A DNA stretch of 32,574 bases from an uncultured bacterium (GTDB lineage Bacteria; Bacteroidota; Bacteroidia; Bacteroidales; CAIWKO01), in NCBI GenBank assembly GCA_903862465.1, contig CAIOYH010000013.1, positions 1 to 32,574 of the forward strand, in the 5' to 3' direction. The notes beneath the pieces were generated by a model. That model searched no databases, had not been told where the DNA came from, and saw nothing but the letters and a program-made list of their open reading frames with translations. Positions 12,589 through 32,574 of the stretch are shown in pieces (position 1 is the stretch's first letter; each line of letters opens with the position of its first letter). A program made the position numbers and the translations under genes.

Positions 12589-12927
12589 TTATTGCTTCAG
12601 CAAATCGTCAATATGTTCGATATAATCCAGCGAATCGTCCAAAATAAAATCCAGGCTTGGGATAGCCCGCAACTGATTTTTGAGTCTATTGCCCAACTCG
12701 CGTCGGATGTCTTTTTGATTATCGTTCATCGTATGTATCAGCGCTGCTTTTTCGGCTATGCCAAACAGGCTCACATACACCCGCGCCGTCGAAAGGTCCT
12801 TAGCCACCTTCACTGCCGTTACCGTTATCAGTGCATTTTTGGCTATTTTCTTTGCCTGCAACTGAAATATTTCCGCCAGCTCTTTCTGAACCAAGCGCGA
12901 AACTTTATTAAGTCGAATGTTATCCAT
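12589..12927 (-). CDS. rbfA: 30S ribosome-binding factor RbfA
   Basis: RbfA binds the 30S subunit near helix 1 of 16S rRNA and is needed for late maturation, especially at low temperature. The protein has the compact KH-like sequence pattern: RLNKVSRLVQKELAEIFQLQ, then ITVTAVKVAKDLSTARVYVSLFG, and a C-terminal FILDDSLDYIEHIDDLL. The ATG at 12927 (112 residues, MDNIRLNKVS) is preferred over an in-frame GTG at 12933, because the GTG falls inside the predicted -7 element. It begins a probable three-gene transcript with the LolC/E-like permease and the BNR-type protein. Confidence 0.94.
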   Translation of the reverse strand: MDNIRLNKVSRLVQKELAEIFQLQAKKIAKNALITVTAVKVAKDLSTARVYVSLFGIAEKAALIHTMNDNQKDIRRELGNRLKNQLRAIPSLDFILDDSLDYIEHIDDLLKQ

Positions 12928-12932
12928 AAGCA

Positions 12933-12940
12933 CAAAGGTA
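12933..12940 (-). promoter_or_regulatory. Probable -7 promoter element of rbfA
   Basis: TACCTTTG on the minus strand, ending 5 nt before the ATG at 12927 and matching TAnnTTTG. Same arrangement as lepA, implying a very short or absent leader. Confidence 0.5.
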
Positions 12941-13023: not shown

Positions 13024-13073
13024 TACAAAATACCAAGCTTCAAAACCCAAATACCAAAAGCCAAATAGCAAAG
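13024..13073. repeat. Dispersed CCAAATACCAA-type spacer repeat
   Basis: Low-complexity words of the CCAAGCT / CCAAATACCAA type. The 17-mer CAAAACCCAAATACCAA at 13041-13057 occurs again, exactly, at 30954-30970, and an inverted relative lies at 31165-31198. Confidence 0.65.
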
Positions 13074-13083
13074 CTGCACGAAA

Positions 13084-13461
13084 GGTGAAAAGTCATTTAT
13101 GGGAGGGGAAAAGTCATCTACGCGAGGGGAAAAGTCATCCACGGGAGGTTTTTCGATTTCTACGATAGGTTTTTTGATTTTTACGCTAGGGGAAAAGTCA
13201 TCCATGGGAGGGGAAAAGTCATCCACGGGAGGGGAAAATCCATCCACGGGAGGTGCGACGTCATCTGAAGGAGATGCGACGTTATCTATAGGAGGGGAAA
13301 ATCCATATATGGGAGATAAATCGTTATCTACGGTAGGTAAAAAGTCATCTATGGGAGATAAATCGTCATCCACGGGAGGGGAAAAGTCATCCACGGGAGG
13401 GGAAAATCCATCTACGGGAGGGGAAAATCCATCCACGGGAGGGGAAAATCCATTTATTTTT
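13084..13461. repeat. Eighteen-copy, indel-free 21-bp tandem repeat array
   Basis: Hand alignment gives 18 consecutive units of exactly 21 bp (378 bp) with no insertion or deletion. The last unit degenerates after its fourteenth base. The commonest unit is GGGGAAAAGTCAT followed by CCACGGGA. Variation is by blocks: the middle reads AAAAGTC, AAAATCC, CGACGTC, AAATCGTC or a T-rich version. Position 1 (G) and position 13 (T) are kept in all units, position 21 (A) in all but the last. Because 21 is divisible by 3, one frame on each strand is stop-free: heptads like GGEKSST on plus and PPVDDFS on minus. No start context or domain supports a gene. It sits between divergent rbfA and the 319-residue protein gene. 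Confidence 0.93.
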
Positions 13462-13541
13462 GATGGAAGATGATTTTAATGCTTTGCATATAGCTTAATA
13501 TCAGACATTTAAAATTTAATTTCATTTTTATAAAAAAAAAC

Positions 13542-13573
13542 TTGATTTATGTGTATGGGATTATGTAATTTTG
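13542..13573 (+). promoter_or_regulatory. Probable promoter of the 319-residue protein gene
   Basis: TTG (13542-13544), 21-nt spacer and TAATTTTG (13566-13573), a good match to the Bacteroidota -33/-7 pattern. Predicted leader about 65 nt before the ATG at 13645. It lies about 80 bp after the end of the 21-bp array. Confidence 0.6.
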
Positions 13574-13644
13574 CATTGCGTTAGTTCGCTTTAGGGCGAA
13601 TAAATTTGCGTAAAAAAAGTATTTACAATTAAAATTTAAAAGAT

Positions 13645-14604
13645 ATGAAAGATTCTAATGAAAATGTTTTGACGATGGTGAACCGGATATTGTTATTGTG
13701 TTTTAATAATATGACTATCGTGGATGGTGTTGTTAAGTTTAAGGCGAAGTATGTTACGTTGAAAGCGATGCGGGATGCTGCGAATGTGATTGCGCAGTTG
13801 TTGTATGCTACGACGCACGGCGTTACGCTGAATAAGGGTAAGAAGAAGGAGACGGCGGCTGTGAATTCGTTTGTTATTGTTCAGGTTTTGAAGTCGTATG
13901 CTCATGAGACGGGGGATTTGGATTTGGAGGAGTTGATGGCAAAGAGTATATCTTATATAAGAGGGATACGGGATGCGGAGTTTTGGGATTTTGGGAAGAT
14001 GGTGTATGATAAGGCATGGGCACTGAGGGAGACGTTGCCGGATTATGGTATTGAGGAGCTTCAGATTACGGGAATGTTGGCGGATATGGATGCTTATGAA
14101 TTGTTGGAGCAGCAGCCGAAGTTGACGGGTTTGGAGTTGGAGCAACAAAGGGCTAATTTGGATGTGAAGGTGAAGGATATGCGGAGTTTTTTGTCGAATG
14201 AGATGGATCCGTTGGCGGTGGTTTTTATGAATACGCAGCCTGATTTTTATGCGATTTATAAGAAAGCACGGAAGATTCCGAAGACGAGCAGGCATAAGTT
14301 GACGGCGGATGAGTTGGAGAATACGACAGGGGCGATTGATATGACGGTTTTGGCGAAGGATACGATGGAGCCTGTGATTGGGGCGTTGTGTGGGATTGCT
14401 TCGATTGAGTTTAGCGATACGACTGATGAAACGGGGGGCAGTTATGTGGATTGTTTGTTGCCTAGTGCGTATATTTTGACGGTTAGTTGTCCCGGATATA
14501 TTACAGCGACTAACACGGTTGAGTTGGCAGCGGGTGAGTATAAGGTTTTGGAGATTCAGTTGGAGAAGGATTTGAGCGGGGAGGATGTGCCGCCGGTTAG
14601 TTAG
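13645..14604 (+). CDS. Hypothetical protein with C-terminal carboxypeptidase-regulatory-like beta-sandwich
   Basis: Not recognised as a named family. The 319 residues split into a mainly helical, charged region (about 1-225) without signal peptide or membrane segment, and a C-terminal beta-rich segment (about 232-312). In that segment AIDMTVLAKDTMEPVIGA, then GSYVDCLLPSAYILTVSCPGY and VELAAGEYKVLEIQL, follow the carboxypeptidase-regulatory (CarboxypepD_reg-like) pattern common in Bacteroidota. Codon use is unlike the neighbours: TTG for Leu, AAG for Lys and G-ending codons dominate, so the coding strand is rich in G and T. That could mean recent transfer or unusual strand bias. The frame is closed by TAG inside GTTAGTTAGTTAATAG, so a readthrough would end at once. 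Confidence 0.75.
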   Translation: MKDSNENVLTMVNRILLLCFNNMTIVDGVVKFKAKYVTLKAMRDAANVIAQLLYATTHGVTLNKGKKKETAAVNSFVIVQVLKSYAHETGDLDLEELMAKSISYIRGIRDAEFWDFGKMVYDKAWALRETLPDYGIEELQITGMLADMDAYELLEQQPKLTGLELEQQRANLDVKVKDMRSFLSNEMDPLAVVFMNTQPDFYAIYKKARKIPKTSRHKLTADELENTTGAIDMTVLAKDTMEPVIGALCGIASIEFSDTTDETGGSYVDCLLPSAYILTVSCPGYITATNTVELAAGEYKVLEIQLEKDLSGEDVPPVS

Positions 14605-14659: not shown

Positions 14660-14757
14660 AACCCCAACCCCTTGAAAAGGGGCTATAACAGGGCGGGATG
14701 TGATTAAGAACCCCAACCCCTTGAAAAAAGGGGCTATAACAGGGAGGGATGTAATTG
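14660..14757. repeat. Tandem duplication of a 49-bp hairpin-bearing unit
   Basis: Two adjacent copies of about 49 bp (14660-14708 and 14709-14757) that differ by a small indel and a few substitutions. Each begins AACCCCAACCCCTTGAAAA and contains the hairpin CCCCTT/AAGGGG followed by GGCTATAACAGGG. Neither copy encodes anything. Confidence 0.85.
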
Positions 14758-14794
14758 GAACGCTGATGACGCAGATTTGTGTGATTAAATATGA

Positions 14795-16075: not shown

Positions 16076-16303
16076 ATGGAAGCAATTATTGTCAAAGCTA
16101 AGAATAAGGAAGCCTTTGCTTTTCTGAAAAAACTATTAAGCTCTTTGAAAGAAGTTTCGAGTTTTGAAGTGGTGGATATAGATGAAAAAGCTAATAAAAA
16201 GGTACTGAATGCCGAAACCCTTCAAGCGCTTAAAGATGTTGAAGAAGGTAAAGTTTTTTCCTCCAAAAGCCATGATGATTTGATGGAGCAATTAAATAAA
16301 TAG
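16076..16303 (+). CDS. Putative type II antitoxin paired with the YafQ-like toxin
   Basis: A 75-residue protein placed 4 nt before a YafQ-type toxin gene, the standard antitoxin-first order. The N-terminus (MEAIIVKAKNKEAFAFLKKLLSSL in part) reads as a short beta strand plus helix. It is followed by EVVDIDEKANKKVLNAETLQALKDVEEGK and a C-terminal SHDDLMEQLNK. The LNAETLQALKDVEEGKV segment resembles the toxin-wrapping tails of many RelB/DinJ-type and DUF2683-like antitoxins. No DNA-binding domain is certain from sequence alone. Context is the main reason for the call; it probably neutralises the downstream toxin and may repress the shared promoter. Confidence 0.78.
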   Translation: MEAIIVKAKNKEAFAFLKKLLSSLKEVSSFEVVDIDEKANKKVLNAETLQALKDVEEGKVFSSKSHDDLMEQLNK

Positions 16304-16307
16304 CAAC

Positions 16308-16580
16308 ATGTTTGAGATTAAGTTTTCCGGCAGGTTTAAAAAGGACTTTAAAAAGTATCAAAACAATGCGAAAGACTATTTCGTGATTGAAAATGCTTTA
16401 AAGACACTACGCTCGGAAGGCGATTTGGCAGATGCCAAATATAAAACACATGCCTTAGAGGGCAATTTCGTCAATCATTTTGATTCGCATCTAAAACCGG
16501 ATTTGATTCTTATATGGAAAAAATCGGAATCCGCCATTATAGTAATTAGACTCGGCAAGCATAGCGAACTTTTTAAATAA
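16308..16580 (+). CDS. YafQ-family (RelE/ParE superfamily) mRNA interferase toxin
   Basis: A 90-residue protein with the YafQ pattern: FSGRFKKDFKKYQ at the N-terminus, the core HALEGNFVNHFDSHLKPDLILIWKK at about 52-76, and the closing IRLGKHSELFK. In YafQ the toxin cleaves mRNA on the ribosome; the H-x-L-x-G-x-(5)-x-H-x-KPDLLLIY region and the C-terminal His-Ser-x-LF supply catalytic residues. Here the matching histidines are H52, H60, H64 and H85, all kept, so the toxin looks intact. It is cytoplasmic and translationally linked to the antitoxin. Flanking repeat-filled spacers suggest it arrived as part of an accessory segment. Confidence 0.88.
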   Translation: MFEIKFSGRFKKDFKKYQNNAKDYFVIENALKTLRSEGDLADAKYKTHALEGNFVNHFDSHLKPDLILIWKKSESAIIVIRLGKHSELFK

Positions 16581-32410: not shown

Positions 32411-32465
32411 AAAAGAAACTCCAAGGTTGTGAACTAGAACAAAATGTTTTGGAATTGTTATTGCT

Positions 32466-32574
32466 AAGCTAGCAATTATAACCACTAAGCTAGAAGTGAT
32501 AACTTCAAAGCTAGAAGTGATAACTTCAACGCTACAAGTGATAACTCCAAAGCTACAAGTGATAACTTCAAAGC
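32466..32574. repeat. 21-bp tandem repeat array, truncated by the window edge
   Basis: Five units of exactly 21 bp (32466-32486, 32487-32507, 32508-32528, 32529-32549, 32550-32570) and the start of a sixth. Units 2 and 3 are identical; others differ by substitution only. Each unit is three 7-bp words all starting AA: AAGCTAG, AAGTGAT, AACTTCA. One forward frame is open, reading heptads like KLEVITS, but has no start codon after an upstream TGA at 32430-32432. Downstream extent unknown. Confidence 0.9.

Follow-up and report, generated by a model that had tools for sequence, protein, structure and literature searches.

What does a stretch of DNA do when it keeps the length of its repeat unit exact to the base and lets the letters of the unit change? 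The question is raised by 18 contiguous 21-bp units that stand between rbfA and an unnamed open reading frame in a 32,574-nucleotide stretch from an uncultured member of the Bacteroidales (hereafter the window, meaning the whole stretch analysed). The features on which the argument turns are as follows.

12589..12933, minus strand: rbfA, a neighbour outside the module
13084..13461, plus strand (that of the downstream gene): tandem array of 18 x 21 bp, the putative non-coding half of the locus
13462..13644, plus strand: spacer between array and gene, with a promoter motif TTG-N21-TAATTTTG at 13542-13573 and another, weaker motif closer to the gene
13645..14604, plus strand: family A gene (319 aa), with a predicted helical N-domain (residues ~1-215) and a predicted transthyretin-like C-domain (~229-310)
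32464..32574, no strand assigned: second 21-bp array with a different unit, cut by the contig end; no family A or B gene seen beside it within the window

The first array sits in the 711-bp space between rbfA and the 319-aa frame. An ungapped 21-base split runs through 13084-13461 in a single register, which bears out the reading of these 378 bp in the initial annotation as 18 x 21 without an indel. Unit 18 (13441-13461) leaves the consensus past about 13 bases, giving ~17.6 good copies, and TRF reports 1-9% indels in some overlapping rows, yet the 21-base register is constant. The blocks AAAAGTC, AAAATCC and CGACGTC, from which block-wise change had been proposed, are indeed present and recur in non-adjacent units, and the columns are linked beyond chance: the z of the mutual information declines from 14.1 for column pairs at distance 1 to 2.7 for pairs at distance 10, and in columns 3-9 there are 8 haplotypes, where 300 column shuffles gave 15.9 on average and never fewer than 13. 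With its own genome as target (4.23 Mb in 230 contigs, the window being one contig in full), the array found itself and four matches of 18-27 bases. The unit of the second array (32464-32574) also occurs at the ends of two further contigs of the same genome, C91 and C52.

Three smaller features of the window were recorded in passing. Short tracts with 14- and 7-bp periods adjoin rbfA in two species (13041-13072 in the window; 332-356 in L150). An imperfect 51-bp direct repeat lies at 14660-14756, a 40-bp piece of which (14721-14760) is also found behind the family A homologue of L012. A small ORF pair of toxin-antitoxin type at 16076-16580 combines a YafQ-family member (PF15738) with an ORF of 75 aa that matched nothing in Pfam.

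The protein encoded behind the first array matched no Pfam or NCBIfam family above the curated cut-off, and its weak matches fell in the C-terminal third; the Pfam family CarboxypepD_reg, below cut-off for this protein, is above it for the homologues at L014, L017 and L027. In the predicted structure the C-domain is a transthyretin-like beta-sandwich, aligning with 5aq0_B at Z 13.1 and an rmsd of 1.3 over 81 residues. The N-domain, predicted alone with AlphaFold2, came out all-helical (mean pLDDT 88.2). Structure searches gave no convincing match to its fold (best Foldseek E 0.22; VIA best at Z 8.1 over 100 residues, within the chance range for helical bundles) and recognised no known DNA-binding fold, though the N-domain may still have a known fold. 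Homologues of this family A protein obtained by protein search have 21-bp arrays nearby, with letters differing from those of the window array. A sample of the window's own genome showed genes of a second family, B (~205-226 aa), next to arrays; B has no significant similarity to A (hhalign probability 9.9%). No relative of the window protein was found in the genome-contig collection searched, neither phage nor plasmid collections gave a match to the L082 N-domain at E 1e-3, the B protein of L037 matched nothing in viral contigs, and PADLOC matched none of eight proteins. The hosts are mostly uncultured bacteria in which two unnamed protein families often stand just behind arrays.

The arrays are concentrated upstream of these genes, a link that the initial annotation had overlooked. 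We took 40 stretches centred on such a gene (21 on A, 19 on B) and counted TRF arrays of at least 80 bp whose base period is 19-22 or a multiple: the first kilobase upstream, 39.2 kb in total, contained 29 arrays, and the remaining 592.1 kb out to 9 kb contained 10 (binomial p 3e-27); the stretches were picked from protein-profile matches by score and contig size, and array positions had already been seen in part of them. An array lay within 800 bp upstream of 11/21 A and 16/19 B genes and downstream of 1/21 and 1/19, and 7 of the 346 control ORFs in the same stretches had one within 800 bp upstream. A wider set comprises 96 distinct A/B genes, 61 of them with an array. It includes five loci found through their proximity to arrays (L036, L037, L038, L040 and L045), which lie outside the 40-stretch set, and excludes duplicates, loci without a gene and L021, with 156 bp of upstream sequence (L001-L004, L006, L008-L011, L021, L051, L058 and L064 in all). 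Where at least 600 bp of upstream sequence was available, an array lay within 900 bp of 57/86 genes, and no array was detectable upstream of the remaining 29/86. The median distance from array to start codon is 196 bp for A and 159 bp for B. The association extends beyond the window's genus, with arrays at 33/52 genes outside it and 24/34 within; outside it, at least one array was present in 24 of the 31 entries, made up of 30 genomes plus a pool of named contigs.

Not every array has such a gene behind it. The TRF set contains 28 that do not by the test applied, and no third gene family emerged behind them. Among these, L130 stands before a broken B gene, L116 comes after an A gene, and two come after B genes, from among three B genes of the window's own genome, G000, with a 21-bp array downstream (L040 16603-16875; L069 2547-2798, also L142 10608-10859; and L074 1147-1374, for which 77 bp of upstream sequence were examined). 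At L130 (9669-10267) the B gene behind the 21-bp array carries one internal TGA, a decayed locus with its array retained. Arrays with a base period of 41-43 and no A/B gene behind them were seen at L031 13392-13600, L033 1-186, L035 7612-7827, L044 10020-10455, L049 9494-9703 and L136 1138-1395. One 20-bp unit recurs at three G000 loci, with a B gene in C8 (1-262), without one in C17 (1826-2020) and at a contig end in C51 (1-141).

Between species, arrays and genes come and go. The RbfA of a second species, G003, is 99% identical to that of the window, and the 438 bp available upstream of its gene contain neither an array nor an A gene. G003 has its A homologue elsewhere, beside another gene and with an array upstream, and the DNA similarity to the window starts 28 bp before the start codon. 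Array and gene are therefore found together at different places in the two species. At another locus G003 has kept an array (L166) whose G000 counterpart has a B gene, and no A/B gene was found in L166; since this solitary array keeps its units, an array needs no gene in cis. The unassociated G000 array L033 gave no alignment at the syntenic place in G003.

Arrays and genes co-occur at the level of whole genomes as well. We counted A/B genes by profile in 20 genomes and scanned stretches of 14 of these for arrays. Across 519 kb from six genomes with 0-1 A/B genes, including G002 from the same genus, the scan picked up not one array of lag 20, 21 or 40-43; 607 kb from eight genomes with at least five such genes yielded 33, of which G000 alone supplied 24, although one of the eight, G005, had five genes and no array in the 60 kb sampled. 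Gene count and array count are correlated (Spearman rho 0.78, 14 genomes), and with G000 left out there are still 9 arrays in 363 kb versus 0 in 519 kb (p ~0.008). The 243.5-kb sample of G000 holds 24 arrays by the lag scan and five A/B genes, so that unassociated arrays are common there. These genome-level scans, like those of the period below, used autocorrelation, whereas the 40-stretch and unassociated-array counts used TRF (at least 80 bp); the counts therefore differ between analyses.

The period of the arrays is fixed. A scan of lags 8-44 that preferred none of them found 63/87 regions upstream of A/B genes to be periodic (identity at least 0.55), with best lags of 20 (7 regions), 21 (28), 40 (1), 41 (1) and 42 (26). 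All 63 thus fall at 20, 21, 40, 41 or 42, with letters that are mostly unrelated, which supports the earlier suggestion of selection on spacing insofar as the spacing is kept. Downstream of A/B genes 15/90 regions were periodic, eight of them at 21 or 42. A scan of large stretches at 0.6 gave lag 8 for one upstream segment in 33; elsewhere, too, most segments were at 21, 42 or 43. Because arrays elsewhere also favour 21 and 42, the period belongs to the class of array rather than to the place. By family, the base period is 21 in 33/35 A arrays, and 21 in 18/26 and 20 in 8/26 B arrays; the 20-bp class makes up 10 of the 61 arrays. The frequency of lag 42 (26/63) suggested an alternation of two unit types; only 3/21 A and 5/23 B arrays alternate relative to shuffled unit order, and we do not claim it. 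No phasing of A/T at 10-11 bp showed up within arrays (z 0.1 for A arrays; in a second test z -1.2 for A and -0.8 for B), and two helical turns as the spacing rule are compatible with this result.

The letters of the arrays change fast. Taking arrays as related at z 3 or more in whole-array comparison, we found related arrays in 3/5 protein pairs of at least 80% identity (L144/L076, L038/L052 and L061/L054), in 3/15 at 60-80% and in 2/35 at 40-60%, so that arrays were unrelated in 45 of the 50 pairs at 40-80%. Unrelated arrays stood beside proteins as close as 90% (L059/L052) and 85% (L059/L038), and also at 75%, 74% and 69% identity. Between the window and L012 (67% protein identity) a weak trace is left (z 3.2). 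The pair L061/L054, with 95% identical proteins, had appeared unrelated by consensus unit, a reading we dropped because the whole arrays are related (z 6.2).

Where arrays can be compared between relatives, they differ by copying and by whole units. The orthologous B-linked arrays L144 and L076, from separate assemblies, have 14 units each in one register, within a 936-bp alignment at 89.5% identity, and are homogenised differently; L145 differs from its counterpart L166 by one whole unit. Random indels in relatives, which would have spoken against the initial annotation, are seen in neither pair. Its idea of gene-conversion-like copying of blocks fits both the column linkage in the window array and the differing homogenisation of L144 and L076. 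Taken together, that annotation holds in part: kept spacing and block copying stand, and its alternative of seven codons, taken up below, does not.

Promoters indicate which arrays may be transcribed. For this we used the pattern TT[TG]-N17-23-TAnnTTTG, which we take to describe promoters here; by the same consensus, the window motif at 13542-13573 is presumably a Bacteroidota-type promoter. The pattern occurs upstream of 56/436 control ORFs (10.6 expected). At B loci it was found before the array in 9/24 (0.98 expected) and in the gap between array and gene in 0/26 (0.33 expected). At A loci it was found in the gap in 4/35 (1.3 expected), including the window and L012, and upstream of the array in 2/33 (0.8 expected), which is weak evidence. 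A second site, GTTCTTTGA, stands 52-98 bp ahead of the array in 6/24 B loci (three each from G003 and G042; 0.08 expected), with none on the other strand and none before 33 A arrays. As GTTCTTT[GA]A, it accompanies 5/6 B arrays of period 20 versus 1/18 of period 21. A search of 12 genomes turned up five 16S genes in four of them (G002 included, G003 and G042 not), and the same motif lies 99-169 bp before all five. Since it also precedes 16S genes, the motif is probably boxA, an element that a passage of PMC7862264 places upstream of 16S RNA and, citing another paper, of natural CRISPR arrays; the same passage reports that boxA added to a synthetic CRISPR array raised pre-crRNA ~10-fold. The promoter motif and the boxA-like site suggest that the B arrays they precede are probably transcribed. 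One of the 28 unassociated arrays has the motif, that of the window: GTTCTTTAA stands 62 bp ahead of 32464-32574, and since it overlaps the end of an ORF it may be chance.

From these regularities we tentatively favour, though we place it a little short of probable, the reading that the array forms the non-coding part of a locus with two halves and acts in cis as a multi-site element of the gene behind it. The data show that arrays of constant period and quickly changing letters accompany the two families, at single loci and across genomes; control of the adjacent gene, and the manner of control, are what we infer. The locus would consist of a tandem array of fixed unit length followed by a gene of family A, as in the window, or of family B. 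Each unit of 20-21 bases, about two turns of B-DNA, would serve as one module; the number and spacing of modules would matter, and the letters would be largely free and rewritten by copying between units. Some B loci, chiefly those of the 20-bp class, would probably have the array within a transcribed leader, in the order promoter, boxA, array and gene. In the window the promoter motif stands after the array and before the gene, which makes a role of this array as upstream DNA more likely.

It is also possible, though doubtful, that the array is the source of an RNA partner, being transcribed into a repeat RNA that binds the A or B protein, serving as an antitoxin, a scaffold or a store, in the style of type III toxin-antitoxin loci. 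The place of the repeats upstream of the gene and the promoter and boxA-like sites ahead of B arrays would suit such a role, as would the structure of those arrays. The unit consensus is palindromic in B-linked arrays (mean z 1.08, 10/26 above 1.5; consensus scores are less reliable for mixed arrays, as is the comparison of consensus units), and most B rows fold more stably than their column-shuffled versions. However, A-linked arrays are unstructured by the same score (mean z 0.20, 1/35 above 1.5), the window array shows no RNA structure (z 0.1 sense, 0.3 antisense), and its promoter motif is behind the array. A simple pattern found no terminator-like site in the window between 12900 and 13700, no toxin family was found, and array letters are not tied to the protein. 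The palindrome signal is present on both strands and may reflect DNA dyads. Rfam gave no family above the gathering threshold in the window; across 20 further loci it matched two tRNAs and one DUF805b RNA and nothing else, none of these at an array, and the last is at L080 297-332 (RF02914).

Distinctly unlikely, in our view, is a functionless minisatellite, a repeat prone to slippage and conversion that settled harmlessly upstream of rarely needed genes. Block homogenisation, arrays without a gene, presence and absence between close species and the 29 genes without an array are what such a repeat would leave. It is at odds with a period limited to 20-21 and its multiples, with the enrichment upstream of A/B genes over the control ORFs, and with the lack of arrays in 519 kb of genomes with 0-1 such genes.

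The cis-acting element that we favour should also be distinguished from an iteron-like arrangement, in which the adjacent protein recognises its own array by sequence. We regard this as very unlikely. Two-turn spacing upstream of the gene, together with related arrays in three of the five closest protein pairs, is in its favour, but arrays can be unrelated at up to 90% protein identity and seldom related below 80%, and no known DNA-binding fold was recognised.

That the array encodes a heptapeptide repeat, the seven-codon alternative raised earlier, is scarcely credible: both strands of the window array are open, but over 43 arrays open frames are near expectation (sense 29/43 versus 22.9 expected, antisense 27/43 versus 23.8), and the 20-bp units of 10 in 61 arrays are unable to hold a heptapeptide frame, so that we take the array as not coding. 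Assembly error, also named by the initial annotation as a possible source of the array, has next to nothing to recommend it: several arrays lie at contig ends, but L144 and L076 have equal unit numbers in two assemblies and a 27-unit array occurs in G212, a genome assembled as one 3.9-Mb contig.

Beyond a cis-acting element, a bolder proposal, which we consider rather unlikely, is that the A and B loci form an undescribed class that pairs a gene with an array set by a ruler and not by sequence, in which a cell factor, perhaps the A or B protein, makes or keeps exact, locus-specific units of 20-21 bases before its own gene, with letters soon replaced after duplication. If a protein does measure or write the units, repeats in DNA or RNA would here be produced or read by a new mechanism. 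If the arrays are plain regulatory repeats, their novelty is smaller, and they would still point to loci, tens in each genome, that annotation skips and that can end contigs. Because arrays are absent from sampled genomes lacking both gene families, cause and effect can be tested.

Among known systems, type III toxin-antitoxin loci (ToxIN, CptIN, TenpIN) are alike in having tandem repeats directly upstream of a protein gene, as is also found here. A passage of PMC5086642 gives their order as repeats, terminator, then toxin gene. Here the units are of 20-21 bp and their letters are not tied to the protein, the Rho-independent terminator between repeats and gene was not found in the window, and Pfam and PADLOC scans showed no endoribonuclease of the ToxN, CptN or TenpN kind, the protein having predicted helical and transthyretin-like domains instead. 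CRISPR loci with boxA leaders share with part of family B the series of promoter, boxA-like site and repeat array, but the units here are contiguous and have no spacers. Plasmid iterons and centromere arrays likewise have direct repeats upstream of a gene at a spacing of about two helical turns; they differ in that the arrays here occupy many chromosomal loci per genome with 5 to 29 units, their letters change faster than the protein, and the one A N-domain searched had no phage or plasmid match.

Intergenic VNTR or contingency repeats and TAACTGA repeats (PMC4679880) resemble the arrays in being intergenic tandem repeats, often ahead of start codons. That paper reports the TAACTGA heptamers in Beggiatoaceae, Cyanobacteria and some Bacteroidetes, and they have one shared 7-base unit, whereas here unit length is fixed, letters are locus-specific and two gene families follow. 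Deletions at intergenic tandem repeats are discussed with Planctomycetes in a passage of PMC9426551. A contingency locus varies in copy number between strains, with an effect on expression; between species here, one pair of arrays is equal in units and one is a single whole unit apart. The literature searched, with few subscription papers and no preprints, gave no account of 20-21-bp arrays before such genes. A unit length exact to the base with quickly changing letters is unusual for bacteria, and the novelty rests on the combination of a fixed period, free letters and two gene families.
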